NCBI GenBank assembly: GCA_023954855.1
Contig: JAGSGY010000017.1
Coordinates: 1-64,000 of the forward strand
Length of the DNA stretch: 64,000 bases
Source: Pseudomonadota bacterium
Lineage (GTDB): Bacteria; Myxococcota_A; UBA796; GCA-2862545
Reading direction: 5' to 3'
In this document: positions 45,081 through 58,058 of the stretch, piece after piece
Numbering within the stretch: the stretch's first letter is position 1
How the letters are laid out: the number at the start of each line of letters is the position of its first letter
The notes under the pieces: generated by a model
Database searches by the model: none
Told to the model about the DNA's origin: nothing
The model's input: only the letters and a program-made list of their open reading frames with translations
Translations under genes and position numbers: made by a program

Positions 45081-48000
45081 ATGCGCATCGTTCGCCATAC
45101 CGCTCTGCACTTTCAGCGAGGGACCTCGGACAAGGTCTACGAGGTCGATCTGTGCGAGGTCGGCGCGGGCGAGTTCGTGGTCAACTTCCGCTATGGACGG
45201 CGCGGAGCCGCACTTCGAGAGGGATCGAAGACGGTGCTTCCCGTCGACCGCGCCAAAGCGGACGGCATCTTCGACAAGCTGGTCACCGCCAAGAAGAAGA
45301 AGGGCTACGTCGACGTCACGCCGGCGCCCACGACATCGGCACCCCCAGCTCCAGTCGCCCCCACGCCGAGCCCGACGCCTGGCCAGCTGAGCGAGCGCGA
45401 CCGGACCATCGTCCGCTATCTGGCCGAGCCGTCGAGTCGGCCGTCTGACTGGCCCCTGCCGCGTATCGCTTGGCGTGCCGGCGAGCTGCGCATCCGAGCG
45501 GCAGCCCCTCACCTGGCCACCATGCTCAACGGGGACGGCGCCCTCGCCTATTCCGCGACCTGGGCGCTCGGAAGGCTCGCCAATCCCGACTACGCCGAGG
45601 CCCTGCGCAAACGCTCGACCTCGGGTACCGCAAGCCACACGCGCCGCATCGCCGTGGAGGGTCTACGCGCGTGCGCCACGCCGCAGCAACGCGACGCCCT
45701 GAACGCGCGGTGGAGGGGAGAGCTGCCTTCATCGCTCGCGGCTGCCCTCGACGATGCCCTGGCGTTCTCGGCCGCCCTGACCGCGTGGGTCGAGACCGCG
45801 GGCCCAGACCGAGCACCCGTGTTTCGGCTGCTCTACCTCATCGACAGCCCATCGATCCGCCCCGGCCTGCTGCACCAGCTGCGCACCCTCTCGCTCAAGC
45901 CGCCGAACTTCAAGATCTTCCGCCAACTGCTCAAGGCGGCTGAGTTCCGCGTCGACGGGCAGGTCTTCGGCACGATTGCCCGCCGCATCTCGATGACCCG
46001 GCAGAACTACTCGAGGGGCTACTGGTCAAGGGGGACGGTGTGGTTCCCCGGCCAAGGCAGCCTGAGCATCGCCGAAGAGTCCGCCAAGCTCGACTCGCGA
46101 CTCGCCTACTCGAAGGGCACGCGCACCTGGCTGCGCCGCCATGTCTGGCGCGTCCTGCGCCGCCTCGCAGCCGACCAGTCCGCCGACTACGTCACGCTGG
46201 CCACCGGCCTGCTCTTGGCCATCGCCGATGGCGACTCGCCAAATCCGAGGCAACGCCGGGTCTGGTACTGGGGCACGGGCGAGCGCACGACCCACTACGA
46301 CCGCTTCGCCAACTTCTGGGCAGTGAACAAAGTCCTGCACGGCAAGAGCCGGCGCTACGAGCCGCGGTACGCGAGCCTGAGCCATGTCTGCGTGCCGCCG
46401 TTCGAGCCCGGCAGCCCCGCACCGGCCACCCGTGAGGAGTCGTACCCGGATCTCTGGAATGCGCGTCCCGAGGCAATGGTCACGCTGCTCGACAAGAGTG
46501 CGTGTGACCCCGTGCACGTCTTCGCCGCGCGCGCCCTGCGAACACAGACCACCGCCTGGTCCCTGCCCACGCCCGCCCAGCTGCTTGGCTGGCTGAACTC
46601 GGGCTACGCGATCACCGAAGAGCTCGGCGCCGACATCGCCATCGCGCGCCACGACCCGGCGAATCCCGACCTCGAGCTGGTCGCCGCACTCTGCCAAGCA
46701 CGTCTCGACCGCGCACGCCACACCGCCCACGGCTGGGTTCGCTCAGATCCCAGCGCCTACGTTGGCGACAGCCCCTTTGTCGTGCAGCTCGCGCTCTCTG
46801 GACAAGCCGACTCCCGCGGCGTGATTCGCGATGTGCTGAGCACGGCGCTGCTCACCCCCGAGCAGCAGGACGCGCACATCAAGGCGCTGCTCGATGCCTT
46901 GGCCGACATCCCCGATGAGGACGGGCCGAGTGACGACGCCATCCGCGAGGTCGCCACGCTGATCACCAGCGCCTTCGGCAGGCGCGCGCGGGTCCTGGAC
47001 CTCGCCCAGATCGCGGAGCTGCTCCAGCACGAGCGCGGCACCGTCCAAGAGGTCGGCGCACGCCTACTCCTCGACCACGAGACGCCGGCCGAGAAGCTTC
47101 CGGACGCGATCATCGCGGGTCTGATGCGGTCTGGTTACGCGCCGATCCGCACCATCGGCCTGAACCTCTTCGGTCGCCTGCCCGATGCGGTGCTGCTCGA
47201 GCGCTACAGCGTCATCGTGCACCTGTGCGCCAATCCCCACGCCGACGTGCGCAGCGCGGTGCGTCCCATCATCGGTCGCCTCGCCCCCGCTCACCCGAGC
47301 TTCGCCGCGTCTCTCTTCGACAGCCTGCTCAGTGTGCTCACCGCGGACGAGGCCTTCGAGGGACTGCACACCGACCTCGTTCGCCTGACCCGCGAGCAGC
47401 TCGCAAGCGCTCTCTCGAGAGCAACAACGGCCCAGGTATGGAAGCTGCTTCAGTCGCCGACGGGCATTGTGCAGGAGCTTGGCGGTGAGCTTCTCGGCAC
47501 CCACGTCGATGCCAGCGAGCTGACCATGCGCCAACTCGCAGAGCTCGGTAGTCACGACATCCGCGCCGTCCGGACCGCCGTCTGGGACCTGTACGCCGCC
47601 AACGCCGACCGGGTTCGCGCGGAGCTCGACGAAGCGCTGCGCATCCTCGACGCGAGCTGGGACGACACCCGGATGTGGGCGTTCCTGTGGTTCGAAGAGA
47701 CCCTGACCTCCACCGATCTCACGCCGACCTTGCTCGTCTCGATGTGTGACGGCGTGCGGCCCGACGTGCAGGCCTTCGGTCGCCGCATGCTCACACGCCA
47801 CTTCGAGGGTGAACACGGTCCGGAGTACCTGCTCAAGCTCTCGCAGCACCCGGCCACGGACATGCAGCTGTTCGCGACGAACTACCTCGAGCGCTACGCC
47901 GGTGGTCACACCGACCGCGTCGAGCGACTCGTGCCCTACTTCACCTCGGTGTTGAGCCGCGTGAACAAGGGCCGCATCGCAAAGCAGCGCGTGCACGCCT

Positions 48001-48200
48001 TCCTCGCAGGTGAGGCCGCCCGGGACGAGGCTTCCGCCCAGCTCATCGCAGATATTCTCGCCCGCGTGTCGGCAAGCTGTGCGGTCCAGGACCGGGCCAA
48101 GGCCATCGAGACGCTGCTCCAGATCGCGACCCAGTACCCGTCGATCGCCATGCCGCTGACCGTGCTTCCCACTGCCCGCCGAGGCTCCCGTGCAGTTTGA
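45081..48200 (+). CDS. Retron-associated WGR + ARM/HEAT-repeat protein
   Basis: A 1039-residue protein. Residues 1-77 form a WGR-like domain (LHFQRGTSDKVYEVDLCE..., FRYGRRGAALREGSK, then AKADGIFDKLVTAKKKKGY), a nucleic-acid-binding module known from PARPs and MolR. A Pro/Ala/Thr linker (about 80-103) leads to about 900 residues of ARM/HEAT-like helical repeats, e.g. YSATWALGRLANPDYAEALR, EVGARLLLDHETPAEKLPDAI and ADVRSAVRPIIGRLAPAHPS. ARM-repeat proteins of this size accompany type XIII retrons, together with a SWIM protein and the RT. It starts at 45081 and overlaps the SWIM gene by 11 bases. Confidence 0.85.
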   Translation: MRIVRHTALHFQRGTSDKVYEVDLCEVGAGEFVVNFRYGRRGAALREGSKTVLPVDRAKADGIFDKLVTAKKKKGYVDVTPAPTTSAPPAPVAPTPSPTPGQLSERDRTIVRYLAEPSSRPSDWPLPRIAWRAGELRIRAAAPHLATMLNGDGALAYSATWALGRLANPDYAEALRKRSTSGTASHTRRIAVEGLRACATPQQRDALNARWRGELPSSLAAALDDALAFSAALTAWVETAGPDRAPVFRLLYLIDSPSIRPGLLHQLRTLSLKPPNFKIFRQLLKAAEFRVDGQVFGTIARRISMTRQNYSRGYWSRGTVWFPGQGSLSIAEESAKLDSRLAYSKGTRTWLRRHVWRVLRRLAADQSADYVTLATGLLLAIADGDSPNPRQRRVWYWGTGERTTHYDRFANFWAVNKVLHGKSRRYEPRYASLSHVCVPPFEPGSPAPATREESYPDLWNARPEAMVTLLDKSACDPVHVFAARALRTQTTAWSLPTPAQLLGWLNSGYAITEELGADIAIARHDPANPDLELVAALCQARLDRARHTAHGWVRSDPSAYVGDSPFVVQLALSGQADSRGVIRDVLSTALLTPEQQDAHIKALLDALADIPDEDGPSDDAIREVATLITSAFGRRARVLDLAQIAELLQHERGTVQEVGARLLLDHETPAEKLPDAIIAGLMRSGYAPIRTIGLNLFGRLPDAVLLERYSVIVHLCANPHADVRSAVRPIIGRLAPAHPSFAASLFDSLLSVLTADEAFEGLHTDLVRLTREQLASALSRATTAQVWKLLQSPTGIVQELGGELLGTHVDASELTMRQLAELGSHDIRAVRTAVWDLYAANADRVRAELDEALRILDASWDDTRMWAFLWFEETLTSTDLTPTLLVSMCDGVRPDVQAFGRRMLTRHFEGEHGPEYLLKLSQHPATDMQLFATNYLERYAGGHTDRVERLVPYFTSVLSRVNKGRIAKQRVHAFLAGEAARDEASAQLIADILARVSASCAVQDRAKAIETLLQIATQYPSIAMPLTVLPTARRGSRAV

Positions 48201-49836
48201 GTACCGCTACTTCGGCAGCTCTTCGGTGCACTCGAGCGCCTCGAGCCAGGGCCTCTCCTTCGCGCCGGACACGTCGCGCGAGCCCACCTGGTTCAAGGGA
48301 CGCATCTCCGAGCAGCTCGCCTTTCGCGAGGGCATCAGCGCCCTTCACGACGTGGTCGTCTCGGACCAGCGCTTCAAGCCGAAAGACCGTACCGAATACC
48401 TGGAATGGCGGGCGCAGCAGGACGAGTTCGACTGGGCAGATGTCATCCAGAACCGCGGCGACGTGCTCAAGCAGATCGAGAACCTGCAGGACGAGCTGCA
48501 GACCCTCCAGCGAAGCCGCATGGGACGCTGGAAGGGCTTCTACGCCGACCGAAAGCGCTACTTCCAGTACCTCTGGGAGAAGTCCCGCGAGGCGTGGTGG
48601 GTGCTCGACCCGGTCATCACGGTGCACCCGGACCAGGTGTTCTTCGAGTGCTTCAGCGAAGACGAGTCGAGCTACGCCCGGCTGGGCTGCTCGTACGAGG
48701 TCTTTGACAAGGTCGGAGAGTTCGCCTGCGGCACGACGAACGTCGACTACAGCTCCGCGCTCTACGACGAGTTCCAGAAGATCCGGTCCTACAAGGCCAC
48801 TGATCTGACTGTCGACCCGGCCGGCTTCTCGGTCCAGACGACCGGCGAAGACGACTACCGCGAGGTCAAGATCGACCTGCCGGACAGCTGGGTTCGCGGC
48901 TTCTTGCAGGTCTCGTCGGCAATGACCCTTCCGGGCGCGACCTTCGAGCTGCACCCGATGGACGTGCACAACCTGTGCTTCTTCCTTCGCCGGCAGAAGG
49001 AGACCCACGGTCCCCGGTCCCTGCGCATCAAGCTCGAGCCCGGCAAGCCGGTCTCCATCGGCATCGAGCCGTGGAACCACACGCTGACCTGCCCACGCAG
49101 CATCTACAAGGGGCGCGACAGCCATGAGATCCGCCTGTGGGGCCGCCGCCGTCTGCACGTGCTCGAGAGACTGATTCCGGTCGCCAAGCGCTTCACCGTC
49201 ACCACGCTCGGCTCGGGCTTACCGTCGTTCTGGGTCGCCGACCTCGGTCACCTGTCCTTCACGCTCGGCTTGTCGGGTTGGACGGCCAACGACTGGTCCG
49301 CGTCCGGCAACTTCGACCTGCTCGCCTCGCGCGCCGAGGTCGACAGCTTCACTCAGCAGCGCGTCTTCGATGCACTCGGCACCCACTGGTTCGCGACCGC
49401 CGAGACGCTCAGCAAGGAGCTCGGACTCGACAGCGCGGTCGTGCACTCCGCCCTCGGGGCCTACGCACAGGCCGGCCGGGTGATCTACGACCTCGACAAG
49501 GGCGTGTACCGAAAGCGCGAGCTCACCCGCGAACCCCTGCCCATCGACGCGCTCCGCTGGACCAACGAGCGCGAGCAGTCCGCCGCGACACTCGTCCAGA
49601 GCGGCGCCGTCGAGAAGGTCCGCGCCTCGACCGTCGGCAAGGACACTCGCCTTGAGGGCGAAGTCCGCGTTGGCACGCGACTCGAGACGCCTCAGTTCGT
49701 GCTCGACGCCGATCAGCGCATGACCGCACCGGCCTGCAGCTGCAGCTACTTCTTTCGCAACCAGCTCAAGCGTGGGCCGTGTGAGCACCTGCTCGCCCTA
49801 CGTCTTGCGCACAGCCGCAACGCGAGGTTCGCATGA
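48190..49836 (+). CDS. Retron-associated SWIM zinc-finger protein
   Basis: A 548-residue protein starting with GTG inside the end of the ARM gene. The C-terminus is a SWIM zinc finger: Cys516-x-Cys518-x12-Cys531-x-His533 (CSCSYFFRN..., PCEHLLALRLAH). A winged-helix-like region precedes it (VDSFTQQRVFDALGTHWFATAETLSKELGLDSAVVHSALGAYAQAGRVIYDLDKGVYRKREL, about 390-450). This winged-helix plus SWIM layout is the second effector-type subunit of type XIII retrons. It may bind msDNA or target nucleic acid. The msr-msd RNA begins 49 bases after its stop. Confidence 0.87.
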   Translation: MQFEYRYFGSSSVHSSASSQGLSFAPDTSREPTWFKGRISEQLAFREGISALHDVVVSDQRFKPKDRTEYLEWRAQQDEFDWADVIQNRGDVLKQIENLQDELQTLQRSRMGRWKGFYADRKRYFQYLWEKSREAWWVLDPVITVHPDQVFFECFSEDESSYARLGCSYEVFDKVGEFACGTTNVDYSSALYDEFQKIRSYKATDLTVDPAGFSVQTTGEDDYREVKIDLPDSWVRGFLQVSSAMTLPGATFELHPMDVHNLCFFLRRQKETHGPRSLRIKLEPGKPVSIGIEPWNHTLTCPRSIYKGRDSHEIRLWGRRRLHVLERLIPVAKRFTVTTLGSGLPSFWVADLGHLSFTLGLSGWTANDWSASGNFDLLASRAEVDSFTQQRVFDALGTHWFATAETLSKELGLDSAVVHSALGAYAQAGRVIYDLDKGVYRKRELTREPLPIDALRWTNEREQSAATLVQSGAVEKVRASTVGKDTRLEGEVRVGTRLETPQFVLDADQRMTAPACSCSYFFRNQLKRGPCEHLLALRLAHSRNARFA

Positions 49837-49884
49837 GCTACGCTGCGGCTGTTGTTCCGCGCCATTCGGCGAGGGAGCGCTCTT
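49837..49884 (+). promoter_or_regulatory. Leader between SWIM gene and retron RNA
   Basis: These 48 bases separate the SWIM stop from repeat a1. No convincing -35/-10 pair is seen, so the retron RNA may be processed from a long transcript or be driven by a promoter inside the SWIM gene. Confidence 0.3.
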
Positions 49885-49900
49885 TTTCAGTGCGGGGACC
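49885..49900 (+). repeat. Retron inverted repeat a1
   Basis: Sixteen bases that are the exact reverse complement of a2 at 50094-50109. Pairing of a1 with a2 closes the msr-msd RNA and primes reverse transcription in all known retrons. Confidence 0.9.
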
Positions 49901-50093
49901 TGGACCTTGCCATCCGGGCGGTGTGATCGCCGTCCTGGCTTCCAGCTTCTCCATGCATCACCGGCCCGGTCTTTCCTGTGCAGGACCTGCCATGGTGTCG
50001 CCGGTTTCGGTTTGCCCCCCGTGGGGGAACCGAGCGACACCATGGCGGTCCTGCGTCGAGTTGACCGATCCGCTCTACCGCCTTGACGAAGGT

Positions 50094-50109
50094 GGTCCCC
50101 GCACTGAAA
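50094..50109 (+). repeat. Retron inverted repeat a2
   Basis: GGTCCCCGCACTGAAA, the perfect partner of a1. It ends 31 bases before the RT start codon. Confidence 0.9.
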
Positions 50110-50115
50110 TCCCCT

Positions 50116-50135
50116 CCTCCACTTCCTGGTGGAGG
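50116..50135 (+). promoter_or_regulatory. Hairpin covering the RT ribosome binding site
   Basis: CCTCCAC (50116-50122), a 6-base loop, and GTGGAGG (50129-50135) form a perfect 7-bp stem. The 3' arm contains the GGAGG Shine-Dalgarno of the reverse transcriptase, whose ATG is at 50141. Folding would limit RT translation. Confidence 0.6.
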
Positions 50136-50140
50136 GCCGC

Positions 50141-51787
50141 ATGAGCGACGACCGGCCGACCCGGCAGGAGCTCTACGACCGCATCCGCGGGTCCTCCAAA
50201 GACCAGGTCATCCTCGAAGAGATGATCCGGCTGGGCTTCTACCCCAAGGACGGCTCGCTTCCCGACGACCCGATTGCCGAGATCCAGCGCCTCGGGGACC
50301 TACACGGCCAGCTGCGAAAGCTGCGCCGCGACCACGCCGACCTGCACAACCTCGACAAGCTGAAGCGCCAGGCGAAGCGCGCCCGTATGGACGCCGCGCT
50401 GCAGCGTCGCAAAGAGACCAAAGCCAAGCGCCTCAAGGCGCGCCAAGACCGAGCCGCCGCCTGGGTCGTGCGCCAGTCCACCGAGCTACTGCACATTGGC
50501 GAAGGCGTGTCCGAAGGCCTCGGCCAGACCGAGGGAACCCCCCGCTACGCCCTGCCGAACCTGCAGGACGGCGCCGCGATCGCCGCCGCCATGGACATCG
50601 ATGTCGGCGAGCTGCGCTGGCTCGCGTACAACCGACGCGTCTCGAAAGTCAGCCACTACAAGCGGTTCTCGATTCCGAAAAAGACGGGCGGAGAACGCCT
50701 GATCTCAGCCCCGATGCCACGCCTGAAGGCGAGCCAACACTGGGTGCTGCGCAACATCCTCGACAAGGTGCCGCTTCACGACGCGGCGCACGGCTTTGTG
50801 ACCGGTCGCTCGATCGTCAGCAACGCCGCTCCGCACGTGAACGCGCGCATTGTCGTGAACATGGACCTGCAGGACTTCTTCCCGTCGATCAGCTGGGTCC
50901 GCGTGCGTGGCCTGTTCGCAAGCTTCGGCTACTCTCGCGAGGCGGCCACCGTGTTGGCCCTGCTCTGCACCGAGGCCAAGACTACGGCCATCGAGCTCGA
51001 CGGCGAGACCTGGCACGTGGCCCAGGGCGAGCGGGTCCTGCCGCAAGGCTCCCCTGCGAGTCCCGCGATCACCAACGCCCTGTGTTGGCAGCTCGACCGA
51101 CGCCTGTCCGGCCTGTGCGCCAAGCTCGGCTTTGTCTACACGCGCTACGCCGACGACCTCACCTTCTCGGCCAAGTCCGACGACGCCTACGTCGGCACGC
51201 TGCTCAAGGCCGTGGGTCAGATCGTCGAGGAAGAGGGCTTCACCGTGCACCCGAAGAAGACCCGGGTGATGCGGGCGGGCAGCCGGCAGGAGGTGACCGG
51301 CCTGGTCGTGAACAACGGGCTCTCGGTCAGCCGACCCCTACGCAGAAACTGGAAAGCCGCCTTGTTCCGCCTCGAGCGCGATGGCCCCGATGCGGTCGAG
51401 TTCGGTCACGGCAATGACGTGTTCGCCTCGCTGATCGGCTTTGCCGAGTTCGTCGCGATGGTCACCCCCAAGGTCGGCGCCCCCATGGTCGAGCGCGCTC
51501 GCGCCGCCGCGGCCGCGCATGGCTGGAAGGCCCGGGTTCGGTCGGTCGAGCCCAGCACCGGGTGGAAAGAGAAGCAGGCGGCATCCATCGCGGCCCGGAT
51601 CGATCGCACCGCTCAGGCCCATGCGTTTCTGTCTGGAGCCACGGCCCAGCCGCCCGAGGGGGCACCGACCGGGCCAAGGCCAACGTCGCAGACCGAGTCT
51701 GCAGCAGCCTCGACCGAGGCGGACTCCTCGGAGAGCACCCCCCATGAACCCGCCAAGTGGTGGGAGTTCTGGAGATGGTTCGAATGA
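50141..51787 (+). CDS. Retron reverse transcriptase
   Basis: A 548-residue retron RT. The retron hallmarks are present: N228-A-A-P-H232 (NAxxH) before VVNMDLQDFFPSI, QGSPASP, the polymerase site Y336-ADD, and V385-T-G (VTGLVVN). About 150 residues precede the RT core and are rich in Arg, Lys and coiled-coil-like helices, as in long myxobacterial retron RTs. About 50 C-terminal residues are low-complexity (Ser, Thr, Glu, Ala) and end WWEFWRWFE. It would make branched msDNA from the upstream RNA. Its stop overlaps the next start (ATGA). Confidence 0.95.
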   Translation: MSDDRPTRQELYDRIRGSSKDQVILEEMIRLGFYPKDGSLPDDPIAEIQRLGDLHGQLRKLRRDHADLHNLDKLKRQAKRARMDAALQRRKETKAKRLKARQDRAAAWVVRQSTELLHIGEGVSEGLGQTEGTPRYALPNLQDGAAIAAAMDIDVGELRWLAYNRRVSKVSHYKRFSIPKKTGGERLISAPMPRLKASQHWVLRNILDKVPLHDAAHGFVTGRSIVSNAAPHVNARIVVNMDLQDFFPSISWVRVRGLFASFGYSREAATVLALLCTEAKTTAIELDGETWHVAQGERVLPQGSPASPAITNALCWQLDRRLSGLCAKLGFVYTRYADDLTFSAKSDDAYVGTLLKAVGQIVEEEGFTVHPKKTRVMRAGSRQEVTGLVVNNGLSVSRPLRRNWKAALFRLERDGPDAVEFGHGNDVFASLIGFAEFVAMVTPKVGAPMVERARAAAAAHGWKARVRSVEPSTGWKEKQAASIAARIDRTAQAHAFLSGATAQPPEGAPTGPRPTSQTESAAASTEADSSESTPHEPAKWWEFWRWFE

Positions 51788-54166: not shown

Positions 54167-55450
54167 CTACTTCCGCCAGGACACCCGGGCGAGCAGCGTG
54201 TGGTTCGTGTCCCAGCGGTACCGACCAAGTCCGTTGACGAAGGAGTAGCCGCCGGCAAACGAGAAGTGGCCGACTCCGAAGACGTCGACGAAAAGGTCGC
54301 CATAGGCGGTGGGCGTCCACTCCTTGCGACCGTCCTGCCCGCGCCAGCCGCCGGCGATAGAGCCGTCGAAGGCCAAGCGCTCCAGCGGCTCCCAGACGAG
54401 CTGAGCGCTGCTGTAGATGCCGGGACCGCCGCCCCACTGGTAGGCGTGCTGCTGCAGGGTCAGATCGAGGGGTCGCCCAAACAAGCCCGCGGCCGTCCAG
54501 CCCACGCGCGCCACGCCGTAGGTCTGCTCCCCGACCTCGCCCGGCCGATACGAACCCGAGAAGGTGAGGTTGTGCACCGCATCCGCGCCCACCTGGACGG
54601 GAACTCGCGCACTCAGCTCCACCTGGTGATGCACGCGCTCGTCGAGGGCTCCGATCTCGAGCGCCTGCTCGAGACCCGTCGAGCGCCGCGCCCACCGGGT
54701 GAGCGCCGGGTCGCGCTCATTGGTCAGCAGCAGCGCCGCCGCACTCCACGCCCGCCAGCCTGCTGTGACTCGAGCATCCCCGAGGCGGGTCTGAGCCTGA
54801 GCACGAAGGTCCGCCGGTCGCACAGGGTGGGCCGCATCGCCAAAGAGCAGGTCGGCCCGAGAAGACAGGCGTAGCCAGTCGGTGACGTCGTGACGCACGT
54901 CGACGACCGCCGAAGCGCGATCGAGGCCGGCGGCCGCCACGAGCACCTCACCGAGAAGGTCGAAGCTCGTGTTCTTTCCGTCGTAGTGCAGGGTTGGGCC
55001 ACCGCCGAAGCGCGCCGCCGGAATCGTGGAGAATGGATCGGGGGCCTCGCCGGCGAAGCCGCCAACCCGCCAGCCGTCGCCGAACTTCACTGTCGCTGCG
55101 GCGCCATCGATGAGCCGAAAGCCACCGCCTTCCGGAGCAAAGCGCCCGAAGGTGAGCGCGGGTCCAGGCTCGGTGTACACCGCAAGCTCGCGAATGCGCG
55201 CACGGTCGATCATGCCCTCGCCAGGCTCGTCGATCAGGCGAATGCCGGCGCGCCCGGCAAACCGGAACTGCCCCCAGCTCTGCTCTTCGCCGCCGAGGTT
55301 CAGCCGAAGCCGGGCGCCGGAGTACCACTCAAGAGCAGGCTCCTCGACCGCATGCCCAACCTCACCGATGAGCCCGGTCGTGACGCGCGCGTAGTCCCGA
55401 GACTCACTCTGAGCCCAGCTCGCGCTGAGGATGGCGAGGAGCCAGATCAC
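54167..55450 (-). CDS. Outer-membrane porin-like protein of the multihaem cytochrome operon
   Basis: A 427-residue predicted beta-barrel: signal (VIWLLAILSASWA) and many alternating strands (ARLRLNLGGEEQSWGQFRFAGRAGIRL, TVKFGDGWRVGGFAGEA, ELSARVPVQVGADAVHNLTFSGSY). The last residues are WRK rather than Phe. It starts with GTG overlapping the 6-haem cytochrome stop (GTGA), so the two are coupled. Barrels of this kind insulate outer-membrane cytochromes in electron conduits. That role is inferred from context, not from a conserved motif. Confidence 0.72.
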   Translation of the reverse strand: MIWLLAILSASWAQSESRDYARVTTGLIGEVGHAVEEPALEWYSGARLRLNLGGEEQSWGQFRFAGRAGIRLIDEPGEGMIDRARIRELAVYTEPGPALTFGRFAPEGGGFRLIDGAAATVKFGDGWRVGGFAGEAPDPFSTIPAARFGGGPTLHYDGKNTSFDLLGEVLVAAAGLDRASAVVDVRHDVTDWLRLSSRADLLFGDAAHPVRPADLRAQAQTRLGDARVTAGWRAWSAAALLLTNERDPALTRWARRSTGLEQALEIGALDERVHHQVELSARVPVQVGADAVHNLTFSGSYRPGEVGEQTYGVARVGWTAAGLFGRPLDLTLQQHAYQWGGGPGIYSSAQLVWEPLERLAFDGSIAGGWRGQDGRKEWTPTAYGDLFVDVFGVGHFSFAGGYSFVNGLGRYRWDTNHTLLARVSWRK

Positions 55451-55956
55451 TCTTGTCCATCCGGGTGACACTCGATGCAGGCCGAGTCCTCATTCCGAAA
55501 GCCCGGCACGTCATCGTGCTCGTTTCGCTCGTTGGGATGGCAGGTCAGGCAACTCCAGTTCGTCGAGGTCGCGGGCTCCCCGTGGCAGGCGTTGCACTCG
55601 CCATCGGCGTTGCCGTGCTGGCGCGGGAAGGTGTGATTGCCGAAGCCGGTCTGCTCCCAGTTGATGCCCGCGGTGTGGCAGCCCTCGCAGTTGTCGAGCC
55701 AGGGGTGGTCGAGCTGGGGGTTCGCGGCCAAGCGGTCCTCAATGGTCGCGAGGTGGCACTGCGTGCAGGTGGCGCCACGCAACTCCTCGAAAGGCGCATC
55801 CACGGGGGCATGGCACGTCGCGCAGGTCACCTCGGCGTGGCGTCCCGCCAGATCGAAGTCGGCATGTGGAGCGGTCGGCGCCTCACACGAGACCCCCACA
55901 AGCGACGCCATCAGGCCGGCACTGAGGCCGAAAGCATAGAGTCGAGCAGCGGTCAT
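55447..55956 (-). CDS. Hexahaem c-type cytochrome
   Basis: A 169-residue exported cytochrome with six CxxCH motifs (CATCH, CTQCH, CEGCH, CNACH, CLTCH, CIECH). The N-terminal segment FGLSAGLMASLVGVSC may be a lipoprotein signal. It lies between the 27-haem cytochrome (ATGA overlap upstream) and the barrel (GTGA overlap downstream), and probably passes electrons at the outer membrane. Confidence 0.85.
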   Translation of the reverse strand: MTAARLYAFGLSAGLMASLVGVSCEAPTAPHADFDLAGRHAEVTCATCHAPVDAPFEELRGATCTQCHLATIEDRLAANPQLDHPWLDNCEGCHTAGINWEQTGFGNHTFPRQHGNADGECNACHGEPATSTNWSCLTCHPNERNEHDDVPGFRNEDSACIECHPDGQE

Positions 55957-58058
55957 GGCGAAGCCCTGTGCGGATTGAAGGTGCGCTCCCAGTCGTAGGG
56001 CTGATGACAGCCCTCGCAGCGAAGGTCGTTCGGGTCGCGGTGCTCGCCCGGCTCGAAGTCCCGAAGGTGGCAGCTCACGCAGTCCTGCGGGGTGCCGATG
56101 TAGCCGGCGGCGTGACAGTCGTTGCAGGCCGCCATGCGGTGTGCGCCGCGCAACGAGAACCCGGTGCTCGCGTGACGGAAGCTCGTGCGCAGCCAGTCCA
56201 CTTCGCCGTGGCAGGTGGAGCAGTCCGAGCCGAGCAGGTTGCGGTGGGGATCCTCGTCGGCGTGGCAGCTCTCGCACTCGCGCGGTGCCGCAGACATCGG
56301 CTTTCCGGTGCCGTGGCAGGCGACGCAGGTGACGGTCTCGTGGGCTCCATGCAGCCCGTAGCCGGTGACTTCGTGGCCGAGCGGTCCGAGGTTGGCCGGC
56401 ATCCAGCCGGCGGTCTGGTGGCACTCCCCGCAGGTCTCGCCAAAGTGCTCGGGTGGGCTGTCGTCGACGTGGCAGCTCTCGCAGGCCGTCTTCTGGCCCT
56501 CGAAAGCGGGGTCGCTATGGCAGTCATTGCAGCCCACATCGGTGTGCGACCCGTCGAGCGCGAACTCGGTCTCTGACGCGTGGTCGAAGCGCACATCGAC
56601 CCAGTCGGTGGTGGCGTGGCAGTCATCGCACGTGTCGGCGGCGAGCTTGCCGTTGTGGGGCTCGTCCTTGGCGTGGCAGTCGTTGCAGCTCTCGTGCTCG
56701 ACCGGATGCCAGACCCAGCCCTCTTGCTGCGTGCGACCGAGGTTGAACAGCGCCGCTTCTTGCGCCACCGCTGCGGCCTGGGTCGCCGTGTGCTCGAGAC
56801 CTTCTGGGTAGTGACAGCTCTCGCACTCCACCTCTGAATGCTTGCCCTTCAGCGAGAAGGCCGTGCGGCCGTGGTCGAAGTCCTCGACGTCCCAGGTGCC
56901 GTCGAGGTGGCACTCAGCGCAGGGAGACGGGTCGAAGCGCCCCTCGTGCTCATCGTCATGGCAGGTGTCGCAGCCATCGAAAGGAAGGCTGGCGAAGGTG
57001 CTCGCAGGCCCGTCCCCGTGACACTCATCGCAGCCGACCTTGGCGTGGTCGCGCTGAAGCGGAAAGTCGGTCTGGTCGTGATCGAAGCCCGACAGCGCAA
57101 AGTCCGGAAGGAACTCGCTGTGGCAGGCATCGCAGTCGCGCGGCGCGAACTGCCCTTCGTGGGGGTCCGCATGGCAACTGGAGCACTCTGCATGCGGAAG
57201 CGGCTTGTAGATCGCCGCCTCGCCGTCGCCGTGACAGGCCTCACAGCTGACCTTTCGGTGCACGCCCTTGAGGGGGTAGTGGCTCGCCCTGTGGCTGAAC
57301 TTACGCAGCGCAAAGTCGGCGGTGTGCACGTCGTGGCAGTCTTCGCAGGCCTTGGGTGCGAACTGGTCACCGTGGATATTGTCGTGGCAGTCCTCGCATT
57401 CGCCGGACTCGACCGGCACGAAGGTCCAGTCCTCGTGGCAGTCCTCGCAGCCGACCTCGACATGTTCACCCTCGAGCACGAAGTCGACTTGCTCGCTCTG
57501 GGTGTGGTCGAAGACCTTGAGGTCGAGGGGCAGTGCGGGCCAGTCTTCCTTGACCTCGTGGCAGGTGTCGCAGCTCTGAAGCAGCGCCCGGTCGCTCTTC
57601 ACGGCGCCATGCGGGTCCTCGTGGCAGTTCATGCACGTCTGCTCGAGCCCCGTCCAGACATCGGGCTCTTCGTGGCAGTCGCTGCACTCGATTTCGCCGT
57701 GCTCACCTTCGAGGCGAAAGCCGGTCGAGTCGTGATCAAAGACCTCTTGCTCTTCCTCTTCGAAGTTCACCATGTCGAAGTCGGCGCCGCGGTGATCGGG
57801 ATGGCAGCTGTGGCAGGTGGCTCCCTTGTCGGCGTGAAAGCCCGTCTTGGTGCGGACCTGCTCCTCGACGCGGTCGTGGCAGTCCATGCACAGCGCCGCC
57901 GAGACCCCTGAGCCCACCTCATGACAGGAGGTGCACTGGGTGATGCCTGTGAGGTCCGCATGCGCCGACGAGAGCTCGCCAGGACTTAGGAAGTCGCCCA
58001 GGCCCTGGGCCGAAGCGGTGTTCATCCACGCAGAGAAGAGGAGCAAAAGCATCGTCAT
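55953..58058 (-). CDS. 27-haem c-type cytochrome
   Basis: A 701-residue periplasmic cytochrome with a signal peptide (MTMLLLLFSAWMNTASA) and 27 CxxCH haem motifs, on average one per 26 residues. The chain shows modular repeats of about 60-70 residues with FDH...F.L.G.H..V.C..CH (e.g. HTQSEQVDFVLEGEHVEVGCEDCH, FDHDQTDFPLQRDHAKVGCDECH), as in large deltaproteobacterial multihaem cytochromes. Many motifs are followed by acidic residues. It overlaps both neighbours (ATGA). It is the likely periplasm-spanning wire of the operon. Confidence 0.92.
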   Translation of the reverse strand: MTMLLLLFSAWMNTASAQGLGDFLSPGELSSAHADLTGITQCTSCHEVGSGVSAALCMDCHDRVEEQVRTKTGFHADKGATCHSCHPDHRGADFDMVNFEEEEQEVFDHDSTGFRLEGEHGEIECSDCHEEPDVWTGLEQTCMNCHEDPHGAVKSDRALLQSCDTCHEVKEDWPALPLDLKVFDHTQSEQVDFVLEGEHVEVGCEDCHEDWTFVPVESGECEDCHDNIHGDQFAPKACEDCHDVHTADFALRKFSHRASHYPLKGVHRKVSCEACHGDGEAAIYKPLPHAECSSCHADPHEGQFAPRDCDACHSEFLPDFALSGFDHDQTDFPLQRDHAKVGCDECHGDGPASTFASLPFDGCDTCHDDEHEGRFDPSPCAECHLDGTWDVEDFDHGRTAFSLKGKHSEVECESCHYPEGLEHTATQAAAVAQEAALFNLGRTQQEGWVWHPVEHESCNDCHAKDEPHNGKLAADTCDDCHATTDWVDVRFDHASETEFALDGSHTDVGCNDCHSDPAFEGQKTACESCHVDDSPPEHFGETCGECHQTAGWMPANLGPLGHEVTGYGLHGAHETVTCVACHGTGKPMSAAPRECESCHADEDPHRNLLGSDCSTCHGEVDWLRTSFRHASTGFSLRGAHRMAACNDCHAAGYIGTPQDCVSCHLRDFEPGEHRDPNDLRCEGCHQPYDWERTFNPHRASP

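Follow-up and report, generated by a model that had tools for sequence, protein, structure and literature searches.

What occupies the gap between a SWIM-type gene and a reverse transcriptase (RT) gene in the 64,000-nt stretch of DNA analysed here (the window), and to which system does it belong? A sequence-only reading had called this segment a retron RNA. That reading is correct and precise, and the object is of an ordinary kind, a complete type XIII retron. It gave neither the retron type nor the effectors, and the outer helix around the msd and the CCUU:AAGG extension of the a1/a2 helix escaped it. The features of the locus are collected in Table 1.

Fold and covariation of the RNA

The a1 and a2 repeats are exactly complementary over 16 bp, at the very coordinates that had been given for them, and they form the sole perfect inverted repeat of at least 14 bp with arms 20–320 nt apart in the 64-kb window. 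In 40 first-order Markov simulations of the window, chance inverted repeats averaged 0.15 at 14 bp and 0 at 16 bp. Folded with a secondary-structure program, positions 49870–50115 (246 nt) reach -138.5 kcal/mol, compared with -97.6 ± 4.6 kcal/mol for dinucleotide shuffles (z = -8.9; 0 of 200 shuffles as good). The msd hairpin is built as had been claimed, with a basal helix of 8 bp (GCAGGACC at 49980–49987 with 50047–50054), a bulged T49988, a second helix of 13 bp (49989–50001 with 50034–50046) and an upper part consisting of TCGGTT/AACCGA and then CCCCC-CGT-GGGGG at 50015–50027; the whole stem is enclosed by the conserved outer helix. The claim of three short msr hairpins was too generous. 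Stability and conservation coincide only in H1 (arms 49916–49923/49928–49935). On its own, the msr folds scarcely better than its shuffles (z = -1.4), and a second hairpin is present in some relatives only. The layout is that of a retron, in which complementary a1 and a2 flank a hairpin-bearing msr and a long msd stem beside an RT gene. A scan with Rfam 15 found no family at gathering score for the ncRNA and nothing meaningful at 49800–50160, with tRNA as the only match over the 64-kb window. The ncRNA occurs as a single copy in the source genome.

Table 1. Features assigned to the retron locus, in window coordinates
Feature	Position	Strand	Basis
WGR_XIII gene, 1039 aa; N-terminal WGR, then HEAT/ARM-like helical repeats; presumed effector/sensor subunit	45081..48200	+	PADLOC WGR_XIII 1061 bits, residues 1-1031
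SWIM_XIII gene, 548 aa; C-terminal SWIM zinc finger C516-x-C518 ... C531-x-H533	48190..49836	+	PADLOC SWIM_XIII 753 bits
Retron ncRNA (msr-msd) including a1 and a2	49885..50109	+	Fold, arm-swap, covariation
a1 repeat, TTTCAGTGCGGGGACC	49885..49900	+	Exact reverse complement of 50094-50109; unique in window
CCUU, inner extension of a1/a2 helix	49905..49908	+	Pairs with AAGG 50089-50092; pair beside priming G covaries
Predicted 2'-5' priming (branch) guanosine in UUGC	49909	+	Invariant G directly after covarying helix
msr hairpin H1, 8 bp, UGAU loop	49916..49935	+	100% of cells paired in 19 distinct sequences; compensatory change in 4/8 pairs
Outer helix, 5' arm	49960..49971	+	Pairs with 50063-50074; compensatory change in 7/11 pairs, 93% of cells paired
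Predicted RT-DNA, about 109-117 nt	49972..50088	-	5' end opposite G50088; 3' end approximate; from a1/a2 helix end and msd base
msd hairpin	49980..50054	+	8 bp, bulged T49988, 13 bp, asymmetric loop, 6 bp, 5 bp CCCCC-CGT-GGGGG cap
GAGTTGA block, 3' of msd stem	50058..50064	+	Invariant in 14 aligned sequences
Outer helix, 3' arm	50063..50074	+	Pairs with 49960-49971; covariation on 20 loci
AAGG	50089..50092	+	Pairs with CCUU 49905-49908
a2 repeat	50094..50109	+	Perfect reverse complement of a1, 16 bp
Retron reverse transcriptase, 548 aa, YADD/NAAPH/VTG motifs	50141..51787	+	PADLOC RT_XIII 589 bits; Pfam RVT_1 95 bits

Covariation in the stems, on which the sequence-only reading had staked itself beforehand, is present. 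In alignment A2 (14 sequences, aligned with MAFFT free of structure; RNAalifold consensus of 49 pairs), compensatory changes occur in 31 of the 49 pairs, and 90% of cells pair, compared with 72% in shuffles and at most 43% with slid partners. When six more loci were aligned to the model to give 20 loci, 36 of the 49 pairs changed on both sides, although the count of 31 is the fairer one because the 20-locus alignment is fitted to the structure. The covariation score of this larger set is 0.663; shuffles give 0.170 (0 of 500 reach the observed score), and slid controls give no more than 0.134. In the same set, 227 cells changed on both sides versus 61 in column shuffles and 35–57 in slid controls. 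An alignment-free arm-swap comparison gave -45.2 kcal/mol for a1/a2 with its own partner versus -24.5 kcal/mol when swapped, and -55.0 versus -25.4 kcal/mol for the msd; the own partner was best in 13 of 14 relatives, both for a1/a2 and for the msd. H1 is near-invariant among close relatives, and in Chamaesiphon (GGAUGAUG/CGUCAUCC) and Thiothrix (GAAUAGUG/CGCUAUUC) its two arms have changed in concert. A covariance model built from 14 relatives, with the following loci outside the building set, matches just upstream of the RT gene in Chamaesiphon (139.5 bits), Thiothrix (115.3 bits), L022/L030 (87.5 bits) and L031/L034 (68.7 bits). These data support an RNA structure that is kept by selection and covaries as a folded retron RNA; the covariation over 20 loci and the retron RT gene starting 31 nt after a2 bear out the identity first proposed.

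The msd stem also has a recurrent geometry. Single-sequence energy folds of the window and 15 relatives, taken as they stand, place an irregularity after 5–9 bp of the msd stem in 15 of the 16 sequences. It is a single unpaired base of the 5' arm, with nothing opposite, in the window (L019), L011, L016, L018, L004, L002 and L003; the other relatives have a 1x1 mismatch or a 2–3 nt asymmetry, and L008 has no irregularity. Above it there are mostly 10–17 further bp, and the msd sequence itself is unconserved.

The priming site and the predicted RT-DNA

In retrons, the priming guanosine lies either within the a1/a2 helix or immediately 3' of its end (PMC6868368). Because the end of the extended helix beside an invariant G fits this rule, we predict that priming occurs at G49909 and that G50088 is the first base to be templated. 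The last pair of the CCUU:AAGG extension is U-A in most relatives, A-U in L030, L031 and L034, and G-C in L022. The priming tetranucleotide would be UUGC here, which is absent from the list in a review of retrons (TAGC, CAGA, CAGC, GAGC and ACGC; PMC6868368), while the canonical UAGC is found in L030, L031 and L034. The sequence-only reading had estimated an msDNA of 110–130 bases counted from the a2 edge. The length was roughly right, but the edge was not, as copying is predicted to start at 50088 and to yield about 109–117 nt. The predicted product, folded as DNA, reaches -41.8 kcal/mol (z = -8.3).

Two local features of the region were also observed. Positions 50080–50092 read CCTTGACGAAGG in the query and TTCGAAGG in relatives; the query sequence permits a local hairpin, ACCGCCUU/AAGGUGGU, as a competitor of the CCUU:AAGG extension in the minimum-energy fold. 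Between a2 and the RT start, at 50114–50137, a hairpin CCTCCTCCAC-TTCC-TGGTGGAGG would mask the Shine-Dalgarno sequence GGTGGAGG of the RT gene. L018 has a similar one, but the family as a whole does not, and we rejected such masking as a family feature.

The operon, its relatives and its type

The SWIM gene has a GTG start that overlaps the WGR stop, the ncRNA fills the intergenic gap between SWIM and RT, and the RT start lies 31 nt downstream of a2. The RT is the sole RVT_1 match in the source genome. Its score with RT_XIII compares with 329 bits for the next best retron model in PADLOC, and a profile of its family, searched against solved structures, favours Ec86 (E about 1e-65) over group II RTs (about 1e-12); every retron RT matched in that search is named for another system. 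NAxxH in region X and VTG in region Y are retron-specific RT motifs (PMC6868368), and the product of 50141–51787 carries NAAPH, VTG and the YADD core. The WGR protein matches Pfam WGR at E 2e-4, just under the cut-off; in its family, Pfam WGR is matched by six of nine members and HEAT_2 by five of nine, and the family profile matches HEAT-like alphaRep chains in the PDB. In the SWIM family, Pfam SWIM is matched by 8 of 14 members and the zinc ligands CxC...CxH are invariant in 14 of 14, while a PDB profile search with this family gave chance-level matches only. Searches of Pfam, PADLOC and PDB profiles found no enzymatic, toxin or nuclease domain in either protein. AlphaFold models were of low confidence and too poor for a fold search (mean pLDDT 51 for SWIM from a 3-row alignment and 45 for WGR from a single sequence); the WGR model suggests a beta-rich N-terminus followed by HEAT-like helices. 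Both proteins look like nucleic-acid or protein binders.

A scan of 377 same-phylum genomes with RT_XIII gave strong matches in 73. The query locus is L019. The order WGR-SWIM-ncRNA-RT is kept in 12 of these same-phylum genomes (L008–L018 and L020; long forms L038–L049) and in Ruegeria (L004), and it is ncRNA-RT-WGR-SWIM in Thiothrix (L003). A Gemmataceae contig (L005) has a match to the RNA model upstream of a SWIM gene (L005:5782–5948) of only 31 bits, and L021–L037 form a second group of SWIM-linked RT_XIII loci, with RTs about 40–48% identical and an ncRNA found weakly or not at all by the model. In the cyanobacterium Chamaesiphon polymorphus, the ncRNA match (L002:4371–4556) precedes a 51% identical RT. 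Because no SWIM or WGR homologue was found on this 10.4-kb contig, the RNA–RT pair may sometimes act with other partners. A genome of the same genus (G068) gave no RT_XIII match; compared with the window as a candidate empty site, it has a 56% homologue of the left-flank gene, and no other window ORF in 36000–64000 matches its neighbourhood, including the right-flank cytochrome gene (701-aa protein), for which no match was found there. At 55447–58058 on the minus strand, the window carries a gene pair for multi-CxxCH cytochrome-like proteins beside outer-membrane-like ORFs.

Type XIII belongs to a scheme reportedly drawn up by Mestre et al. 2020 and used in PADLOC-DB, whose type XIII models are RT_XIII, SWIM_XIII and WGR_XIII / HEAT-ARM_XIII. 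The RT is of type XIII by profile score, SWIM and WGR/HEAT partners lie in its operon, all three proteins match their models nearly full length, and the ncRNA is just upstream of the RT; no feature of the locus falls outside the type, which is assigned here by protein models. We therefore regard the locus as almost certainly a complete type XIII retron operon (WGR-HEAT, SWIM, ncRNA and RT). Retron-Eco1 (Ec86) has the closest solved RT by profile and the same a1-msr-msd-a2 plan, but it has no WGR or SWIM protein and a shorter RT that lacks the N-terminal extension. Its effector is an NDT-type protein unrelated to WGR or SWIM. Compared by description, Mx162 and Sa163 (Retron-Mxa1 and Retron-Sau1) share the long msd, the N-terminal extension of the RT and an a1/a2 helix ending at the priming G, whereas their priming tetranucleotide is CAGC rather than UUGC, and the RT-DNA of Mx162 is 162 nt rather than the predicted 109–117 nt (PMC6868368). 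A search of an open library for experimental work on type XIII retrons, their anti-phage activity included, returned none.

Genes in GC-rich genomes often have strong hairpins nearby, and the element could on that ground be a hairpin of another kind (a terminator, an attenuator, or a remnant of a group II intron or DGR) that lies beside an RT gene. This explanation is refuted by covariation and genomic context and retains next to no credibility: the RT profile favours retron RTs, an a1-msr-msd-a2 arrangement in which a covarying helix stops at an invariant G is the build of a retron, and the model matches precede type XIII RTs in other phyla. It is similarly very improbable, though a little less so, that the RNA has kept its shape in a system that is inactive here. 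The query does depart from its family at the C-C opposition 49961/50073 and in having GACG for UUCG before AAGG; however, the three ORFs are intact, the RT retains its catalytic and retron motifs, a1/a2 and the msd pair almost perfectly, and some of the changes peculiar to the query are compensatory (U-A to C-G at columns 59/179).

Possible function of the system

Retrons act by abortive infection, with a toxic effector restrained by the RT, the ncRNA and the RT-DNA (PMC12548924). By analogy, a guard-type defence mechanism is the probable role of this type XIII operon. From general retron biology, the RT would bind the msr hairpin, use as primer the 2'-OH of G49909, where the a1/a2 and CCUU:AAGG helix ends, copy from G50088 and stop near the msd base (about 49972–49980). 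The product would be a single-stranded DNA of the length predicted above, with a 21-bp hairpin that carries one bulged base, still joined to the msr RNA. The RT–msDNA complex would most likely keep the WGR-HEAT and SWIM proteins inactive, and phage damage to the msDNA, or binding of it, would release them and lead to growth stop or death of the infected cell. This killing step is assumed by analogy, given that the searches of the WGR and SWIM proteins yielded no enzymatic domain.

Alternatively, the retron RNA and RT could be functional and the msDNA could have a regulatory or repair role in the host, with neither the WGR nor the SWIM protein acting as a toxin. Consistent with this are the lack of a toxin or nuclease domain among the matches of either protein, the frequency of RT_XIII relatives in the phylum (73 of 377 genomes) and the vertical inheritance that has been argued for myxobacterial retrons (PMC6868368). 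Yet PADLOC catalogues these proteins among its type XIII retron defence genes, the same-genus genome without an RT_XIII match suits a patchily distributed defence gene, and retrons with studied effectors act in defence (PMC12548924). We thus consider a host role unlikely, and guard-type defence remains the preferred reading.

The defined ends, the fold supported by covariation and the predicted first templated base provide a ready construct for making and sequencing the RT-DNA. Beyond the earlier reading, the analysis adds the priming site, the start base, the outer helix and the conserved bulge geometry. The last of these leads to a tentative idea, namely that the msd DNA hairpin may be a shape code: its sequence would be free, while nearly all relatives would keep an irregularity on one and the same side of the stem 5–9 bp up from its base, then a helix of mostly 10–17 bp and, beneath the apical hairpin, an asymmetric loop, since the bulged duplex would be read as an 'intact' signal by the WGR or SWIM effector or by a host protein that binds mismatches or bulges. 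Apart from the construct and this geometry, the locus adds one further example to a listed retron type; a bulge geometry conserved free of sequence would offer a testable statement on what the effector reads.
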